The notes: a model not told the origin generated them from the letters alone. Positions 41,443-54,979 are shown, counted from the first letter of the stretch. The stretch is 64,000 bases of DNA from Sorangium aterium (GCF_028368935.1 NZ_JAQNDK010000004.1:1178001-1242000); one strand, 5' to 3'. Translations and numbers: made by a program.

Positions 41443-42798
<1,356 letters not shown>

Positions 42799-43224: not shown

Positions 43225-43602
43225 ATGGCCCGCATGCTGATCGTGGACGGTGAGAATTCCCAGCGTCGCGCTCTTTCGGCAGGGCTAAGCGTCGAGGGGT
43301 TCGAGGTCGTGTTCGCCGCCTCGTTCCAGGATGCGATGTTCACCCTCGGCTCGTCTCCGGTCGACGTGGCGATGATCGACCTGATGATGCCGGACCTGAA
43401 CGGCCTCGAGCTGGCGCGGCACATCCGGCATGCATTCCCGAGGGTGCGGGTCGTGCTCTCCAGCGCCTATCACCTCTCCGCGCGCCAGGTCGAGCGCGCC
43501 GACTGCGGCGCGGTGGCCTTCGTCCCCAAGCCTTATCAGGTGGGCGAGATCTGTCGCTTCCTCCGCGCCAAGACGAGCGTGCTCGCGCCCGCGTCGTGCT
43601 AG
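43225..43602 (+). CDS. Single-domain response regulator (orphan receiver)
   Basis: 125 residues; AGGAGG (43212-43217) fixes the ATG at 43225 over one at 43195. It has the receiver landmarks: phosphorylation Asp in VAMIDLMMPDLNG, Ser in VVLSSAYH and Lys in FVPKPYQ. The N-terminal acidic pair is altered to VDGEN, leaving Asp and Glu separated by Gly. There is no output domain, so it probably works by protein-protein contact or in a phosphorelay. It is driven by a sigma-54 promoter. Confidence 0.88.
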   Translation: MARMLIVDGENSQRRALSAGLSVEGFEVVFAASFQDAMFTLGSSPVDVAMIDLMMPDLNGLELARHIRHAFPRVRVVLSSAYHLSARQVERADCGAVAFVPKPYQVGEICRFLRAKTSVLAPASC

Positions 43603-46222: not shown

Positions 46223-47923
46223 ATGACGCAAGACGCCAACAAGAAGCCGCTCGGACGCATCCTCCTGCAGCAGAGGGCGGTCACCCAGCCCCAGCTCGAA
46301 CAGGCGCTCCTCGATGCGCGCGCGAAGGGGGTGCCCCTCGCCACGAACCTCATCGAGAGCGGCACCGTCTCCGAGGTCGCTGCGCTGAAGGCCCTCTCCG
46401 AGCAGAGCGGCGTTCCTGGCATCGATCTCAACCAGGTCTGCATCAAGCTGAGCGACCTCTCCATCCTCCCCCGCGAGATCGCCGCCAAGCACAAGCTCCT
46501 TCCCGTGCTCGTGCGCGAGGATCGCATCCTCGTGGCCATGGCCGCGCCCGCCGACAAGAAGGTGATCGACGAGCTCGAGTTCGTGACCGGCAAGCGCGTC
46601 TTCCCGTACATCGCGCTCGCGGGCCCCCTCGTGCGGACCATCGCGGCCGCCTACGACATGAAGGAGCAGGGCGAGCCGTTCTACGTGGGCGCCAAGTGCC
46701 CGCCCGAGGTGCTGAAGCGGGCCGGGCTCGGCTCCACCACGTCGTCCGCTTCCGAGGCGCCGCCCGCGCCCCCGCCCGCCCCTGCACAGCCTGCACAGCC
46801 TGCACAGCCTGCGCCGCGCCGACCTGCGTCCGCCGTGCCCCCGGCGACGGCGGCCCAGGCCCCGGTGGCCCAGGCCCCTGCGGCGCCTGCTCCCAGCGCC
46901 GCCCCGCCGCCGCCGCGGTCCGCGCCGGAGCGCCCGCGTGACGACGCGGAGATCTCGTTCGCGGATCTCACCGACGAGCCGAGCCCGCCTGCTGCCACGT
47001 CGCCGGCCCGCCTCTCCTCGGCGGGGCCGCCGCTCGTCGTCGACGACGCCATGCGGAGGGCGGCGGCGGCCGACGAGCTCACGGACACGGATTTCGGCAC
47101 CGCAGACCGCGATCTGTCCGTCGTCGAGTCGCTCCCGGGCGCAGGCAAGGCGCCGCAGGGCGATCAGACGACGATCCTGGTCGTCGACGACGAGCCGGAG
47201 ATCCGGAAGCTGCTCCGTCGCATCTTCGAGGAGCGCGGGTACCGCGTGGAGGAGGCCGATCGCGGGCTCCTCGCGCTGCGCATGGTCAAGGAGAATCCGC
47301 CCGACGTGATGATCCTCGACGCCATGCTGCCGGAGGTGCACGGCTTCGACATCGCCCGCCGCATGAAGGGCACCCAGCGCTACGGCCACATCCCGATCAT
47401 CATGATCTCGGCCGTCTACCGCGGGTGGCGGTTCGCGGAGGACCTGAAGTCGAGCTACGGCGTCGAGGCCTACATCGAGAAGCCCTTCCGCGTCGCCGAT
47501 GTCGTCGCCGCCGTGGAGAACGCGCTCCAGGCGCGCTCGATCCGCGGCGATCAGGACCGGATCTCGGCGGAGGCGGAGCGCCTCCTCGCCGCGGGGATCG
47601 CGGCGTATCGCGCGGGCGATTTCGACAAGGCCGTGCGGCACCTGCGCGAGGGCACGGCGATCGACCCGCTCGCGTACCGGCTGCACTTCCACCTCGGCCT
47701 GCTCTACGGCAAGCAGGGGCAGCTCTACGACGCCATCCAGGAGCTGGAGACGGCGCTGCACATCAACGGCAAGCACTTCCCCGCGCTGAAGAACCTCGCC
47801 GTGCTCTATCAGAAGGCCGGGTTTCGCAACAAAGCCATCGAGACCTGGGAGCGCGCGCTGGGCGTCGCCCCCGATGACCCGACGCGGCAATCGATCAAGG
47901 AGCACTTGCTCGGGCTGCTCTGA
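46223..47923 (+). CDS. MshEN-like / receiver / TPR fusion protein
   Basis: 566 residues in three parts. Residues 8-150 resemble the GspE/MshE N-terminal (MshEN) domain, with two helical repeats (PLGRILLQQRAVTQPQLEQA and PLATNLIESGTVSEVAALKA). A Pro/Ala-rich linker (about 175-270) contains three PAQ repeats from a 9-base DNA repeat. A receiver domain (316-435) has Asp322/Asp323, phosphorylation Asp366 and Lys420. TPR helices fill 450-560. MshEN domains can bind c-di-GMP, but the usual first Arg of each motif is Pro here, so binding is doubtful. No ATPase domain follows, so it is not a secretion ATPase. The GltJ-like gene is 71 bases downstream. Confidence 0.83.
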   Translation: MTQDANKKPLGRILLQQRAVTQPQLEQALLDARAKGVPLATNLIESGTVSEVAALKALSEQSGVPGIDLNQVCIKLSDLSILPREIAAKHKLLPVLVREDRILVAMAAPADKKVIDELEFVTGKRVFPYIALAGPLVRTIAAAYDMKEQGEPFYVGAKCPPEVLKRAGLGSTTSSASEAPPAPPPAPAQPAQPAQPAPRRPASAVPPATAAQAPVAQAPAAPAPSAAPPPPRSAPERPRDDAEISFADLTDEPSPPAATSPARLSSAGPPLVVDDAMRRAAAADELTDTDFGTADRDLSVVESLPGAGKAPQGDQTTILVVDDEPEIRKLLRRIFEERGYRVEEADRGLLALRMVKENPPDVMILDAMLPEVHGFDIARRMKGTQRYGHIPIIMISAVYRGWRFAEDLKSSYGVEAYIEKPFRVADVVAAVENALQARSIRGDQDRISAEAERLLAAGIAAYRAGDFDKAVRHLREGTAIDPLAYRLHFHLGLLYGKQGQLYDAIQELETALHINGKHFPALKNLAVLYQKAGFRNKAIETWERALGVAPDDPTRQSIKEHLLGLL

Positions 47924-47994
47924 CCGCCTACCCCATGTCGTCTGGGGCCAAGCTGTCGTAGACTGCGCCATTCCACCGGCAGGCGCGTCCCTGG

Positions 47995-50100
47995 ATGAAA
48001 TTCATCTGCGATAACTGCAAGGCCAAGTACCAGATCGGCGACGAGAAGGTCGCCGGCAAGATGGTGCGGATGCAGTGCCGGCGATGCGGGCACCTCATTC
48101 AGGTCAGCGCGAGCGTCACCGAGAGCTCCGTGGCGCGTGCTCTCCCCGTCGAGCCGCCGCGCGAGGCGGGCGACGATGCGCACGTCGCCCCTCCGAGCGA
48201 CGAGGCGCCGGCGGCGGACGCGGGGGCGGCGAGCCCGTTGAAGCCGCCGCCGGCTTCGTCGCTGGGCCAGGGCGCCGCGCCGGCGCCGCCCCGGCCGACA
48301 TCCCAGGCCCTGCCGCGCCCGGCGGGCGCTCCTCGACCTCCGGTCGCGCCGCGCGCCGTCCCCGGACCGGCGTCGAGCCCGCGTCCGGCGACCGCGCCGC
48401 AGGCGGCCCCTGCGGCCCGGGCCGTGCAGCCGGCGCCCGCAGCGCCGGCGCGTTCCCCTGCGCCTGCCGCCAGGGCGGCGGAGCCCGCGCCCCCGGCGGG
48501 GGCCGCCGGCGCGTTCACGCGCGCGATGTCCAATGACCGCCCGCTCGGGAAGGCGCCGGCCGTGCGCGCCACGGCGAGCGAGGACTGGTACGTCGGGGTC
48601 GGCGGCGTCCCGCTCGGCCCGGTGCGCCTCTCGGTCATTCGCGACAAGGCGCTTGCCGGCGCGGTGGACGGCGAGTCGCTCGTCTGGCGCGAGGGCTTCG
48701 ATGAGTGGCTGCCCCTCAAGAACTTCCCGGAGCTGCTCGAGATCGTCACGCAGGCTCAGTCCACCCGTCTGTCTCCGCCCGCGCGCCGCATCAGCACCAC
48801 GGGCTCCTCTGTCGGTCAGCCGCAGGCGTCTCCGTCGGCGAAGGCGCCCTCCTCGTCGAGGATCCCTGCGCTCGCAGGGGCCGCGCCCGCGCGCCCGGCG
48901 ACGCGCGAGCCGGAGCCTCCTGGCCTGAACGAGCAGGCGCCGGCCGTCGCCGCCTTCACCGCGGCGGGGATGCCCGGTGCATCGACGCCGCTGCCCGCGC
49001 CTGTCGCGTCAGCTACGTCCGTTGCGTCCGTCGCGCGCGTCACGCCGGGGGTGCCAGCCGCGAGCGCGCCGGCCGCATGGCCAGGCGCGCCGACAGGCGC
49101 CGTGCGGACCCACGCCGCGGGCGCTGCGCCGGTGGAGGTGCTCGCCGATCCCTTCGCGGCCGATCGAACGGCCCCCGTCGCGTTCGCGCCCGGACCCGAG
49201 CTGCCCGCGTCCGCCTCGACCGAGCTCGCTCGTGGGGCCGGCGGCCTGGCCGCCGGCGGGTCGCTCGCCGCGGCGGCGCCCGCGGGCGGAAGGCTGACCG
49301 CGGGGGCCTCGTCCGCCGCGCCGGCAGGGGCCCTCGCCGCGGCGGAGCCCGCGCCTCTGGTGGCCACGCCTGGCAGCCTGGTGGAGACGGTCGCGCCAAG
49401 GCGGCGGTCGGGCATGAGCCCGCTCGCTTACGCCTTCATCGCCATGGCAGCGGCGTTCGGTGGCGTCTCCGCGTTCGTCCTGCTCTCCCCGAAGCCGCAG
49501 CCCGTGCAGGTCGTGACCGCCCCCCCGCCGCAGAGCCAGCCGGCGGATTTGCCCACGGCGGCCCCGCCGCCACCGCCGAGCGTCGAGCCAGACGCGCCTG
49601 CGCCAGCCGAGACGGCCTCCGCCCGTCCAGAGGTCGCTTCGACGGGCAAGGCGGGCGGCGTCGCGAGCCAGCGCCCTCCTCCTGACAAGCCGGCCGCTCC
49701 GCCGGCCTCTGCCTCTGCCCAGTTCGACCGGTCCGGGTTCGGCGCTGGGGTCCCAGGCCCCTCGTCAGGACCGGGGAGCCAGGGGGCCGGCGCCGGCTTG
49801 AGCCCGCTCTCCCAGGGGGAGATCTCCGGCGTCGTCGAGTCGAACCGCCCCAGCGTCCGGCGCCACTGCTGGCAGCCCGCCCTCGACGCGCGCGCCAGCA
49901 ACGCGGCCAGCACCGCGAGGGTCTCCGCTTCGGTGGTCATCGCCGCCTCGGGCGCCGTCCAGTCCGTCTCGGCCGGCGGGTCGGAGAAGGATTACCCCGG
50001 CCTGTCGAGCTGTATCGCCTCCCGGATCAAGTCCTGGCGGTTCCCTCCTTCCTCGGGTTCCACCCCCGTGACCATTCCGTTCGTCTTCGCCGCGCAGTAG
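47995..50100 (+). CDS. GltJ/AgmX-like protein: zinc ribbon, GYF-like domain, membrane helix, TonB-type C-terminus
   Basis: 701 residues. An N-terminal zinc ribbon (MJ0042 type) has Cys5, Cys8, Cys28 and Cys31. A GYF_2-like domain (about 195-250) begins [18 protein letters not shown]. Long Ala/Pro-rich linkers follow, then one membrane helix (about 474-497, [20 protein letters not shown]) and a periplasmic Pro-rich stretch. The C-terminal TonB/AgmX-type domain is at about 605-700 ([19 protein letters not shown]). The domain order equals that of the Myxococcus gliding protein GltJ (AgmX), whose cytoplasmic zinc ribbon and GYF domains contact the motility machinery. Paralogues with this order exist in myxobacteria, so a motility role is inferred, not shown. 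Confidence 0.82.
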
Positions 50101-50197
50101 GGCCCGCTGCTCGGCAGGGACACACCCGCGGAGCGAAGGCCGCTCGAGCGGGCGCTTGGCTTTACGTCTGCTCAGGCAGACGGTAATCGACGCGCTC

Positions 50198-50602
50198 ATG
50201 GCAGAGCGCAAAGTCCGAATCCTCGTGGCGAAGCCCGGCCTGGACGGCCACGACCGCGGCGCGAAGGTGGTCGCCAGGGCACTCCGCGATGCGGGGTTCG
50301 AGGTGGTCTACACGGGCCTGCACCAGACCCCCGACATGATCGCCTCCGCCGCCGTGCAGGAGGACGTCGACGCCGTGGGGCTGTCGATCATGTCCGGAGC
50401 GCACAACACCCTCTTCCCCGCGGTGATCGAAGCGCTCCGCAACCACGGGGCCGAGGACATCGTGGTGTTCGGTGGGGGCATCATCCCGGATGAGGACATC
50501 GCGCGGCTCCAGCACGCCGGCGTGAAGGGCGTCTTCACCCCCGGGACCACCCTCAAGAGCATCGTGGAGTGGGTCCAGACCAACGTGACCCCCCACGGCT
50601 GA
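50198..50602 (+). CDS. Stand-alone cobalamin-binding subunit, methylmalonyl-CoA mutase C-terminal domain type
   Basis: 134 residues from ATG 50198. The B12-binding motif DxHxxG is at Asp16-Gly21 (DGHDRG, His18 as lower cobalt ligand), with the supporting [10 protein letters not shown] and VVFGGGII. The protein equals the small or C-terminal domain of acyl-CoA mutases. No catalytic large subunit is next to it, so it may serve a distant mutase (methylmalonyl-CoA or isobutyryl/2-hydroxyisobutyryl type). Confidence 0.9.
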
Positions 50603-50633
50603 CCGCCGCCGCGTCGCTCCTCCCCACTCTCCC

Positions 50634-50707
50634 CCACCGCGCTCCTCCCGCTGGGCCACCACGGTCGGGCCACCGCGCTCCTCCTCCCCAGGCCACCGCG
50701 CTCCTCC
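50634..50707. repeat. Three direct copies of CCACCGCGCTCCTCC
   Basis: Identical 15-base units at 50634-50648, 50670-50684 and 50693-50707, separated by 21 and 8 bases, in pyrimidine-rich DNA. Confidence 0.8.
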
Positions 50708-51002
50708 CCACCGGGCTTCCCCCCGGCAAAGGGCTCGCTGAGCCCGTCCGGTAACCCGGATACGCACCCGTTCGTCCGGCTGCGAATCGACGTGCCCAAC
50801 GGCGGCGATCCGCCTTGCCTGCTTTCCGTCTTGCCAGCGTCCGCCGGACGCGTTCCAGCCCACCTCCCAGCGGCTCCCCACTTCCTCCCACGGACCTGCT
50901 CGGGGACGATTTGTCGATAAATCACGCTGTTTTTCTGGGTGCGACCTTGAGGGCATATGTCCTACATAGGTGGTGGATGAGGTCCAGAAATCTCCCAAAC
51001 TG

Positions 51003-51031
51003 TTGACACTCGGCACCTCACTCCGTAGCGT
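51003..51031 (+). promoter_or_regulatory. Probable mraZ (dcw) promoter
   Basis: TTGACA (51003-51008), a perfect -35, 17 bases, then TAGCGT (51026-51031), a weak -10. Expected start near 51038, about 105 bases before mraZ. Confidence 0.6.
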
Positions 51032-51042
51032 GGCGGAGCTTC

Positions 51043-51057
51043 GTGGGAAGAAGTGGC
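51043..51057 (+). promoter_or_regulatory. Candidate MraZ-binding repeats
   Basis: GTGGG at 51043-51047 and GTGGC at 51053-51057 are spaced 10 bases apart, just downstream of the mraZ promoter. A third GTGGC is at 51030-51034, 13 bases away. In E. coli, MraZ binds TGGGN repeats with 5-base gaps and represses its own operon, so autoregulation is a reasonable inference. Confidence 0.4.
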
Positions 51058-51142
51058 AGAGAATGTCACGACGCGGCGTGCGCCCGGTGGAGCAACGCGT
51101 CGCCAACCCCTCGGCGGGACGGACCAGCCGGAGCTGGGGTCG

Positions 51143-51601
51143 ATGAGCACGATGTTTCGCGGTCACTTCGAGCACGCGATCGACGCGAAGGGGCGCACGA
51201 GCCTCCCTTCGCGCTTTCGCGATGTGCTCGCGGCCGCGAACGACCTGCGGATGGTCATCACCCCGGCCCTCTTCGACCCCTGCCTGCACGCGTACCCGAT
51301 GAAGGCATGGGAAGAGCTGGAGGCGAAAATTGCAGCACTTCCGCAATTTGATTCGAACGTTGTCGCATTCCGGCGCCGTTACCTGTCCGCGGCCGTCGAG
51401 TGTGACCTTGACAAGCAGGGCCGGATCCTCATCCCGCCGTCCCTCCGCGAGCACGCGGACCTCACGAAGGACGTGCTGTGGGCGGGCATGGGCCAGACGA
51501 TCGAGCTCTGGTCGCAGGAACGGTGGAAGGCCGCTCAGCAGATGAGCGAGGTCGAGCTTCAGAGCTTCAAGAACGCAATCGCGGAGCAGTTCCGCCTATG
51601 A
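51143..51601 (+). CDS. mraZ: Transcriptional regulator MraZ
   Basis: 152 residues from ATG 51143 (MSTMFRGHFEHAIDAKGRTSLPSRFR). It contains two SpoVT/AbrB-like half domains; the second is LDKQGRILIPPSLREHADL, with the DxxGR signatures present. It is a DNA-binding repressor of the dcw operon and its first gene. The stop overlaps the rsmH start (ATGA). Confidence 0.95.
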   Translation: MSTMFRGHFEHAIDAKGRTSLPSRFRDVLAAANDLRMVITPALFDPCLHAYPMKAWEELEAKIAALPQFDSNVVAFRRRYLSAAVECDLDKQGRILIPPSLREHADLTKDVLWAGMGQTIELWSQERWKAAQQMSEVELQSFKNAIAEQFRL

Positions 51602-52545
51602 ACGTCGTCAATGTAGTCCCCATGCACCTGCCTCCTCCGCCGCCGCGCCCGCGCGGCGAGCAGCACGTCTCCGTCCTCGGCCGCGAGGTGCTCGCCGCGC
51701 TCTCGCCGGTCAGCGAGGGCGTCTACGTCGACGCCACCCTCGGCGCCGGCGGCCACACAGCGACGATCCTCGAGACGCCCGGCGCAAGGGTCATCGGGAT
51801 CGATCGCGACGAGCGCGCCCTCGCCATCGCGCGCGCGCGGCTCGCCCGCGCGGGGGAGCGGGTGACCTACGTTCACGGCGAGTTCTCCGAGATCGAGCGG
51901 CACCTCGCGGCCCTCGGCGTCCCGCAGGTGGACGGCCTCGTGGCCGACATCGGCGTGAGCTCCATGCAGCTCGACGACCCGGCCCGCGGCATGAGCTTCC
52001 GCGCGGAGGGGCCGCTCGACATGCGGATGGACCCGAGCCGCGGCGAGACGGCGCTCGAGCTCATCGAGCGGCTCAGCGACGAGGAGCTCGCGGACCTCAT
52101 CTACCGCTACGGCGAGGAGCGCCGCAGCCGGAGGGTCGCGCGTTGCATCAAGCAGGCGGCCGACAGCGGCGAGCTCGCGACGACGCTCGACCTGCGGCGC
52201 GCGGTCGTGCGCGCCGTCGGGCCGGCGCGCATCGGCGGCGTCGATCCGGCGACGCGCACGTTCCAGGCCCTGCGCATCGCGGTGAACGGTGAGCTCGATC
52301 AGCTCGAGGCGCTGCTCGAGGCGGCGCCCAGGTTCATCGCGCCGGGCGGCGTGCTCGCCGTGATCTCGTTCCACTCGCTGGAGGACCGCATCGTCAAGCG
52401 CGCGCTGCGTGAGCCGGAGATCTGGGAGCCGCTGACGAAGAAGCCGGTGACCGCGGGCGACGACGAGGTCGAAGGCAACCCGAGGGCCCGCAGCGCGAAG
52501 CTCCGCGCCGCGAGGCGCGTGGGCGGGGCGGAGGCGCTCGCGTGA
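51598..52545 (+). CDS. rsmH: 16S rRNA (cytosine(1402)-N(4))-methyltransferase
   Basis: 315 residues. It begins with a Pro-rich lead, then HVSVLGREVLAAL, the SAM motif VDATLGAGGHTATIL, GIDRDERAL, DIGVSSMQLDDPARGMSF and the C-terminal VISFHSLEDRIVKRAL. It modifies C1402 in the ribosomal P site. It overlaps both neighbours by 4 bases. Confidence 0.96.
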   Translation: MNVVNVVPMHLPPPPPRPRGEQHVSVLGREVLAALSPVSEGVYVDATLGAGGHTATILETPGARVIGIDRDERALAIARARLARAGERVTYVHGEFSEIERHLAALGVPQVDGLVADIGVSSMQLDDPARGMSFRAEGPLDMRMDPSRGETALELIERLSDEELADLIYRYGEERRSRRVARCIKQAADSGELATTLDLRRAVVRAVGPARIGGVDPATRTFQALRIAVNGELDQLEALLEAAPRFIAPGGVLAVISFHSLEDRIVKRALREPEIWEPLTKKPVTAGDDEVEGNPRARSAKLRAARRVGGAEALA

Positions 52546-52895
52546 CGCAGCAGCGTCCGTTCCTGATCTTGTGGACGCTCGCGGTGGCCGCGACGGTGGC
52601 GGCGTTCATCGTGCACCTCGCGCTGCGAGGGCGCACGGTCGACCTGGGCTACAAGCTCGGGCGAGCGCGCGCAGAGCAGGCGCGGCTGCGCGAGGTCAAG
52701 CGGGTGCTCTCGCTCGAGGCGGCCAGCTACGAGACGCCGCAGCGCGTGGAGATGGTCGCCCGCTCGCTGCTCGGCATGACGCCGCCCCCGCCCGAGCGCG
52801 TGATCCCGGTGCGGGGCTACTCGGCGCCGCCCGGCGAGCGCGAGCCCGACGGCGACGAGTCCGGCAGCGCGCCGCCGAGCGGAGGGCAGCCGTGA
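52542..52895 (+). CDS. ftsL: Cell division protein FtsL-like
   Basis: 117 residues from GTG 52542. A short cytoplasmic start, one membrane helix (residues 7-28), then a coiled-coil segment (LGYKLGRARAEQARLREVKRVL) and a Pro-rich tail. Size, topology and place between rsmH and ftsI identify FtsL, which joins FtsB and FtsQ at the division site. Sequence identity in this family is low, so the call depends on context. Confidence 0.85.
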   Translation: MTQQRPFLILWTLAVAATVAAFIVHLALRGRTVDLGYKLGRARAEQARLREVKRVLSLEAASYETPQRVEMVARSLLGMTPPPPERVIPVRGYSAPPGEREPDGDESGSAPPSGGQP

Positions 52896-54979
52896 AGAAC
52901 CTCGATCCCCGGCGCGCGCGGTGGATCCGCATCCGCATGGGGCTGCTCTGCGGCCTCATGGCGCTCGGCCTGGGAGGCGTCGTGTCCGGCGCCTACCGCA
53001 TCGAGGTCGAGGACGGGGACGCGTGGTACGACCTCGCCGAGCGGCAGCGCCAGCGGCGGCTCCACATCACGCCGAAGCGCGGCACCATCTACGACAGGAA
53101 CGGCGCGCCGCTCGCGGAGAGCGTCGAGGTGCCCAGCGTCTCCGTGGACGCGGTCGAGATGCTCCGCGGCATCGAGGAGAAGTACGTCCCGATGCGGATC
53201 CAGCAGTACGCCGAGCGCGTCGCGCAGGCGCTCTCGCTGCCGCTCGAGGAGGTCGTGGAGAAGCTCAGCCGGCGGCGCCGCTTCGCGTGGCTCAAGCGCC
53301 GCATCTCCGAGCAGGAGGTCGAGAACGTCCGCGCGCTCGGGGACAGGACGCAGCGCTACCCGGTGCGCGGGCTCGTGATCGAGGGCGAGGGGCGCCGCTT
53401 CTACCCGAACCGCGAGCTCGCCGGCCCGCTGCTCGGCTTCGTCGCCACCGACGGCGAGGGCAAGGAGGGGATCGAGCTCAGCCTGGAGCACGAGCTCCGC
53501 GGCAACGCGTCGGAGGTGCGCGGGCTCCGCGATCGCTCGGGCCGGCTCATCTTCTCGGAGGGGATCGAGGACGAGCAGGCGCTCGCCGGGCACAACGTCC
53601 ACCTGACGATCGACAAGGGTATCCAGTTCACCGCGGAGCGCGAGCTCGAGGCGGCGATGAAGACCTACGAGGCGCTCGGCGGGTCGATCGTGGTCGTCGA
53701 TCCGGAGAGCGGCGAGATCCTCGCCATGGCGAGCGCTCCGGGCTTCAACCCGAACGACTACTCGCAGAGCGATCCGGGGTCCCGGCGCAACCGCTGCGTC
53801 GTCGATCGCTTCGAGCCCGGCTCCACGATGAAGGTGTTCGCCATCGCGAGCGCGATCGCAGCGAAGAGCGTCTCCCCCAGCGCGACCATCTACTGCGAGG
53901 AGGGGAACATGGCGATCGACAACGTCGTGATCCACGACACGCACGTGCACAAGTGGCTGACGTTGCCGCAGATCCTCGCCCAGTCGTCCAACATCGGCAC
54001 GGCGAAGATCGCGCTCGGGCTCGGCGAGCAGCGGCTCTACGAGGGCTTCCGTCGGTTCGGCTTCGGAGACCTGACGGGCGTGCCGCTGCCGGGCGAGTCC
54101 GTGGGCGTGCTGCGGCCGCGCGGCCGCCCCTGGGTCCAGGTCGAGACGGCGGCGGCCGCGTTCGGGCAGGGGATCAGCGTGACCACGCTCCAGCTCGCGA
54201 TGGCCATGGCGTCGGTCGCCAACCACGGGCGGCTGCTCGAGCCGATCCTGATCAAGCGGGTCACCGACGGCACCGGCGTCACGCTGTCGGAGGCGTCGCC
54301 GCGCGTGCGCCGCGACGCGGTGCCTGCGCCGATCGCGCGGATGATGTCGGAGATGCTCGTCGCGGTGACGGAGGGGGACGGGACCGGCGTCGAGGCCGCG
54401 ATCCCTGGGTTCCGCGTCGCGGGGAAGACGGCCACCGCGCAGAAGATCGATCCCGCGACGGGCAAGTACACCGACACCCACTACGTGGCGTCGTTCGTCG
54501 GGTTCGTCCCGGCCGAGCGGCCTCGGCTCACCATCGCGGTGGTGCTCGATGAGCCGATGGGCGGCACGTACGCCGGCGGCTCGGTCGCGGCGCCCGTCTT
54601 CCGTCGGGTCGGTGAGATGGCGCTGCGCTACCTGGGCGTTACCCCGCGCGGGAGCGTGCCGATGAAGCTGTCGGAGATCAGCGAGCAGTCGGGGGAGGAC
54701 CTCGCGGCGAGCACCTACCAGGTGCTGAGCGAGGCGCGCGCCGCGGCCGCGCCGATCTCGACGGGGGTGGTCACGCCGTCCGCGCCGCTCAAGGCGGGGG
54801 AGCTGCGCGTGCCGGATCTGACGGGGCTACCGCAGCGCGAGGCCGTGAAGAGCGCCGCGGCGCTCGGGCTCGATCCGAGCGTCGAGGGCACGGGCCGGCT
54901 CGCGCGCCAGGAGCCTCCGGCCGGGACCGTGCTGCCGAAGGGATCGCCCCTGAAGCTCATCTTCGAGCCCCCCACATGA
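52892..54979 (+). CDS. ftsI: Division-specific peptidoglycan transpeptidase (PBP) with one PASTA domain
   Basis: 695 residues from GTG 52892. One membrane helix (about 17-37), the PBP dimerisation domain, then the transpeptidase: nucleophile Ser311 in FEPGSTMK and the SSN motif in QSSNIGTAK. The third motif, normally KTG, reads Lys512-Thr513-Ala514 (AGKTATAQK). A C-terminal PASTA domain (about 635-695, LRVPDLTGLPQREAVKSAA) may bind peptidoglycan. It crosslinks septal wall with FtsW. Overlaps with ftsL and murE show tight coupling. Confidence 0.95.
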   Translation: MKNLDPRRARWIRIRMGLLCGLMALGLGGVVSGAYRIEVEDGDAWYDLAERQRQRRLHITPKRGTIYDRNGAPLAESVEVPSVSVDAVEMLRGIEEKYVPMRIQQYAERVAQALSLPLEEVVEKLSRRRRFAWLKRRISEQEVENVRALGDRTQRYPVRGLVIEGEGRRFYPNRELAGPLLGFVATDGEGKEGIELSLEHELRGNASEVRGLRDRSGRLIFSEGIEDEQALAGHNVHLTIDKGIQFTAERELEAAMKTYEALGGSIVVVDPESGEILAMASAPGFNPNDYSQSDPGSRRNRCVVDRFEPGSTMKVFAIASAIAAKSVSPSATIYCEEGNMAIDNVVIHDTHVHKWLTLPQILAQSSNIGTAKIALGLGEQRLYEGFRRFGFGDLTGVPLPGESVGVLRPRGRPWVQVETAAAAFGQGISVTTLQLAMAMASVANHGRLLEPILIKRVTDGTGVTLSEASPRVRRDAVPAPIARMMSEMLVAVTEGDGTGVEAAIPGFRVAGKTATAQKIDPATGKYTDTHYVASFVGFVPAERPRLTIAVVLDEPMGGTYAGGSVAAPVFRRVGEMALRYLGVTPRGSVPMKLSEISEQSGEDLAASTYQVLSEARAAAAPISTGVVTPSAPLKAGELRVPDLTGLPQREAVKSAAALGLDPSVEGTGRLARQEPPAGTVLPKGSPLKLIFEPPT

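Follow-up and report, generated by a model that had tools for sequence, protein, structure and literature searches.

A conserved gene pair from Sorangium aterium that may link a receiver-TPR protein to a GltJ-architecture envelope protein

GltJ-type proteins connect a cytoplasmic switch with the envelope and, to our knowledge, have been studied only in the gliding machine of Myxococcus. Myxobacteria also have non-transcriptional response regulators and TPR effectors, such as RomR, FrzS and SgmX, which act on localised envelope machines and not on DNA; receivers switch upon phosphorylation, and both TPR and GYF domains bind proteins. We know of no such regulator that combines an MshEN domain, a receiver and TPRs, or that is encoded beside a GltJ-type protein. 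In M. xanthus, gltJ (MXAN_4862) adjoins the TPR gene gltI (MXAN_4863), and gltJ is listed among the genes of the Myxococcales, Sorangium included (PMC3169522).

Here we have analysed two neighbouring genes, called A and B, in a stretch of 64,000 nucleotides of Sorangium aterium (GCF_028368935.1, NZ_JAQNDK010000004.1:1178001-1242000; the window), which belongs to a genome of 13.5 Mb. Positions are counted from the first nucleotide of the window, and all features of A and B are on the plus strand.

The two genes and their products

Gene A (46223..47923) codes for a protein of 566 aa and gene B (47995..50100) for one of 701 aa; the original prediction of two genes on the same strand, 71 nt apart, is confirmed. 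In the gap between them (47924..47994) the scan found neither a terminator-like nor a sigma-70-like site, and the terminator-like stem located 3΄ of B (50141..50154) is weak, with one seen against 0.8 expected by chance. No histidine kinase was recognised among the annotated neighbours of A-B. An NtrC-type activator (41443-42798) and a stand-alone receiver (43225-43602) are encoded upstream of queA. Directly downstream of B (50198-54979) are the gene of a 134-aa protein, assigned to the B12-binding type by reading its sequence, and then the division-cluster genes mraZ, rsmH and ftsI, an arrangement common to the Sorangium window and to Polyangium.

Protein A matches the Pfam families MshEN (residues 63-148, E 1.3e-15) and Response_reg (318-431, E 1.7e-23), followed by TPRs (451-559), and AlphaFold2, run on an alignment of 75 orthologues, predicted three confident modules and a disordered linker. 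The first module (residues 7-150, 46241..46672) belongs to the MshEN family by its confidently predicted fold and its PF05157 match; its PDB relatives are PilB, PilF and MshE, with a Foldseek match to 5htl_B (E 2.5e-7), and both of its 24-residue c-di-GMP motifs are degraded. A Pro/Ala-rich, poorly conserved linker (residues 174-312, 46742..47158; pLDDT mostly <50) precedes the receiver (PF00072; residues 318-431, 47174..47515), where the phospho-acceptor Asp366 (47318-47320) is kept in 75/75 orthologues and the quintet of acidic pair, phospho-Asp, Ser/Thr and Lys is full in 69 of the 75. The orthologues that have lost receiver residues while keeping the Asp (L067, L068, L071, L148, L149 and L150) are still adjoined by B. 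The C-terminal TPR block (residues 449-565, 47567..47917) closes with the strongly conserved stretch FPALKNLAVLYQ...WERAL..APDD, and the last 52 residues are among the best conserved segments of the 75 orthologues. The Pfam domain search found no DNA-binding output domain in A.

Protein B carries, in this order, the modules of the GltJ-type architecture: a zinc ribbon, a GYF domain, one transmembrane helix and an AgmX/PglI tail. The sequence matches Zn_ribbon_4 (residues 1-35, E 8e-10), GYF_2 (198-247, E 7e-14) and the AgmX/PglI C-terminal domain NF033768 (606-698; 49 bits, above the cut-off of 40), and the AlphaFold2 model, based on 57 orthologues, shows the same four elements with disorder between them. 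Its best PDB matches by sequence are the two solved domains of M. xanthus AgmX/GltJ, namely the ZnR structure 7zok for the N-terminal zinc ribbon (47995..48114, E 2e-8) and the GYF structure 7z3c for residues 195-260 (48577..48774, E 3e-8). Cys5, 8, 28 and 31 of the zinc ribbon, which is also similar to the zinc finger of the polarity protein ZitP, and the GYF signature W198, G208-P209, W231 and W238 are kept in 57/57 orthologues. The transmembrane helix (residues 476-497, 49420..49485), found both in the model and in a hydropathy and charge census, has an Arg-rich flank on its N-terminal side and is followed by a disordered linker (49486..49800; family median 102 residues) and by the C-terminal domain (residues 603-701, 49801..50097), with Cys625 and Cys673 invariant in the 57 orthologues. 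The model of this tail matches the Neisseria TonB C-terminal domain 9dc4_T in VIA-align (Z 8.4, rmsd 2.7 over 85 residues), as well as 1xx3 (Z 7.2) and 1lr0 (Z 7.4).

The domains originally proposed for A and B are thus confirmed by the Pfam and NCBIfam matches and by the predicted folds. Calling the tail of B TonB-like is right as to its TonB/TolA fold, but it should not be extended to function: the His of TonB-type transmembrane helices is absent from the window B and lies within the transmembrane stretch in only 8/57 orthologues, so TonB-like energising, or coupling to ExbB-ExbD, is unlikely, and contact of B with the outer membrane is putative. Classical TonB energising of B was rejected for this reason.

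Conservation of the pair, and B without A

Orthologues of A were first sought with the MshEN part in 30 relatives. The TPR block was then run against 377 genomes from the phylum, of which 73 were positive at E<=1e-15, and against a named collection, from which 80 A loci were kept, in Sorangium, Minicystis, Byssovorax, Polyangium, Labilithrix, Sandaracinaceae and others. For the adjacency count the set was thinned to 88% identity, which gave 84 loci with enough downstream sequence, and B was scored by its zinc ribbon. B lies directly downstream of A and on the same strand in 78 of these 84 testable non-redundant orthologues, separated from it by 7-278 nt (median 90 nt); conserved adjacency, by which the original prediction proposed that the pair be judged, is therefore found. 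The pairing spans the order and other families of the class, and it persists down to ~27-35% identity in A and ~24-27% in B. The upstream genes queA-tgt provide an internal control, as they are inverted in L057, L155, L162 and L167 and absent in other families while A-B is unchanged. The adjacency is far beyond chance, and the pairing itself is near certain.

The other six A loci comprise two with a trimmed B (Polyangium), one with a convergent B-like gene (L119) and three without B. The trimmed Polyangium B has a divergent zinc ribbon and has lost GYF, but keeps the transmembrane helix and the tail, and A is intact. In the Polyangium loci L163, L165, L166, L172 and L199, B is without GYF, and a shortened zinc ribbon, the transmembrane helix and the tail remain; a small gene on the opposite strand lies between A and B in L163, L166, L172 and L199. 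By sequence reading, a small membrane protein resembling FliQ is encoded downstream of A, at a distance of 1.4-2.5 kb, in L063, L134, L137, L147, L156 and L173. A-like MshEN-receiver-TPR proteins without B are found in other families (f38, f15 and f13; L120-L128 and L151-L153), and some of their genes adjoin what reads as a proS-like, 2-epimerase-like or CarD-like gene.

The GYF profile of B has a match in 93/96 genomes of the order, some of them A-less. At least 12 smaller genomes have B but not A, and the full form of B (zinc ribbon, GYF and tail) is present in the A-less G016, G017, G165, G245, G028 and G019 and in genus g18, where two contigs stop short of the tail. Apart from G342, in which A is cut by the contig end, none of the order-level genomes listed as lacking A exceeds 6.3 Mb. 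In eleven of the genomes with B and without A, B is directly preceded by a lipoprotein gene (150-190 aa; at least nine g18 genomes, G019 and G028). Members of this family share an invariant Cys of lipobox type and match SnoaL/NTF2-like profiles, and the sequence is marked by IPNTxVEDTxENR... and by a C-terminus ILSGM. Outside the Polyangiaceae, 27 loci carry such a gene before A. The loci listed for the family are L059:10655-11188 (+), L150:11100-11654 (-) and 25 further ones, and its gene adjoins A or B in many families. An NtrC-type gene recurs upstream of the lipoprotein, A and B genes in many families, being of a different type outside the Polyangiaceae.

The lipoprotein gene occurs in 200/377 sampled genomes, nearly always as a single copy; as many of these genomes have no A, only position links it to the A-B module. 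In the Polyangiaceae it is unlinked to the pair, and in Sorangium it lies on contig C1 at ~2769404-2769862 (~2.769 Mb). The lipoprotein as an obligate third component was consequently rejected. From these distributions, it looks as if B, perhaps with the lipoprotein, were the more widespread core, and A a cytoplasmic input gained or lost by lineage. Since B occurs without A, A would be an added regulator; the pair, originally presented as a unit, is conserved as an adjacency but is not the minimal unit.

A possible route to the envelope and its alternatives

How could the two proteins work? From the established domains, predicted folds, conserved residues and adjacency, we infer the topology, the contact, the phosphorylation, the direction of the signal, the phenotype and the partner in the periplasm. 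A and B probably work together to carry a signal from the cell interior to the envelope, as far as their sequences tell. Our tentative proposal, to which we give slightly less than an even chance, is that they are a conserved module of the Polyangiales for signalling from the cytoplasm to the envelope, in which A acts on B. B would span the inner membrane, its zinc ribbon and GYF facing the cytoplasm and its TonB/TolA-like domain held on a periplasmic tether of ~100 residues. A would be a cytoplasmic adaptor with three parts: a pseudo-MshEN domain for docking, a receiver that can be phosphorylated and a surface of TPRs. An unlinked histidine kinase would phosphorylate A, and phospho-A would bind differently, by its MshEN or TPR surface, to the ZnR/GYF head of B. 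This binding could set the position of B or the partner of its periplasmic end, for which the NTF2-like lipoprotein is a candidate.

The pairing kept amid changing neighbours, the gap free of terminator-like sites, the conserved receiver residues with the invariant Asp366, the invariant signature residues of B, the likeness of its head to the GltJ ZnR and GYF domains, the fold of its tail, the lipoprotein gene directly before B in A-less genomes and the lack of a DNA-binding output in A support such a module. Against it are the 6/75 A orthologues that have lost receiver residues other than the Asp and retain B, the occurrence of B without A, the A-like proteins of other families without an adjacent B, the many genomes with the lipoprotein and without A, and the fact that no kinase gene was recognised among the annotated neighbours. 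The Polyangium loci, where A is intact and B lacks GYF, indicate that GYF is not the sole docking site. The Pro-rich linker of A was considered as the ligand of GYF and dropped, as many orthologues have a linker that is short or low in proline. A more specific version, in which a DNA-independent receiver directly drives a TonB-like trans-envelope protein made of GltJ-type parts, independently of gliding and with the lipoprotein as periplasmic partner, seems to us rather unlikely.

Could the module instead be part of the gliding machinery, with B as the Sorangium GltJ counterpart encoded outside the glt cluster and A as a lineage-specific partner? We regard this, the main alternative, as unlikely, and yet several observations speak for it. 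The Sorangium genome has a Glt-like cluster (L077; contig C3 ~232-242 kb) that codes for a GltG-like protein and for a large protein with TPRs, but no GltJ-type gene is found inside it, and among 19 tail-domain matches in the genome only B was found with the full zinc-ribbon-GYF-transmembrane-tail architecture; B could therefore be the unlinked counterpart. The PDB matches of B are GltJ domains, the TPR-GltJ layout of gltI and gltJ in M. xanthus is similar to that of A-B, and Sorangium is included where gltJ is listed (PMC3169522). On the other hand, B scores 62 bits with the GltJ equivalog model NF033761, whose cut-off of 450 none of the 377 sampled genomes passes, so by that model B is GltJ-like in architecture and not GltJ. 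Moreover, B is in no glt cluster among the loci read, and no glt genes were recognised among the recurring neighbours of A-B. Many other genomes of the order carry, in addition to B, a second zinc-ribbon-GYF-tail subfamily with other surroundings, which is about equally close to the M. xanthus GltJ domains: GYF slightly favours B as the relative (71 bits for B, 51 for the second subfamily) and the zinc ribbon scores are level (53 and 56). Members of this subfamily (L316:9104-10963, L318:8743-10458, L324:9337-11079 and similar), which are marked by the sequence MKIVCDSCGAKYSIADEKVAGK..., are unlinked to A or glt genes in L316, L318 and L324 and are preceded there by a 420-510 aa gene of unknown family. 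As for the statement that no other glt/agl genes are present, it was borne out within the window, where the TonB-tail, GltG and GltJ models match B alone. The related statement that the pair is separate from the known motility cluster holds for its location outside the glt cluster, but separateness from the motility system is unproven, given a Glt-like cluster without a linked GltJ and B as the sole protein of GltJ architecture found in the genome.

The position of the pair just upstream of mraZ, rsmH and ftsI, together with the resemblance of the zinc ribbon to that of ZitP, would suit an operon for envelope biogenesis or cell division and not for motility, in which B places a factor of the periplasm or the peptidoglycan and A connects it to the signals of a cell-cycle phosphorelay; these neighbours are found in Sorangium and Polyangium only, with others elsewhere, and we consider this role improbable. 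It is still harder to credit that A is a c-di-GMP receptor relaying the level of the second messenger, and not phosphorylation, to B. The MshEN fold is predicted with confidence and matches c-di-GMP-bound MshE, and imperfect motifs may bind as well (PMC5013675); however, of the two 24-residue RLGxx..G..L..L..Q motifs described (PMC5013675), intact copies are not present in A across the 75 orthologues, where the Arg and the Gly-10 of motif 1 are each found in 1/75, the Gly-3 of motif 2 in 3/75, and Leu-17 of motif 2 is mostly Ala. This degradation makes c-di-GMP sensing by A doubtful, and its systematic character led us to reject it as the first-choice role. Finally, the adjacency could be frozen synteny with no functional coupling, since neighbours can be linked by descent and the lipoprotein gene still precedes B where A is missing; other neighbours, queA-tgt among them, flip or vanish while A-B stays, even where A orthologues have diverged as far as described above, and this explanation is very improbable indeed.

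Relation to described systems

We found no description of the A-B pair in the open-access literature that was searched. The parts and their folds are already known; their combination and its conservation appear to be new. A conserved module that pairs a receiver protein with a GltJ-type protein would point to a use of the same parts in phospho-signalling throughout an order that has little molecular genetics of motility, and it offers a concrete two-gene target in Sorangium, with the lipoprotein named as a candidate partner.

When compared with GltJ/AgmX of M. xanthus gliding, B has the like order and kind of modules and significant matches to both solved GltJ domains, but it differs in its equivalog score, in its location outside the glt cluster, in having A as a partner and in the existence of trimmed forms without GYF. 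The N-terminus of A shares its fold and Pfam family with MshE, PilB and PilF, but lacks the c-di-GMP motif residues and an attached ATPase domain. Like RomR, FrzS and SgmX, A is a receiver/TPR protein that would act on an envelope machine and not on DNA. The tail of B, in turn, has the fold of the TonB and TolA C-terminal domains, from which B is distinguished by an invariant Cys pair, by the lack of a conserved transmembrane His, and by a large, presumably cytoplasmic head in place of a short N-terminus.
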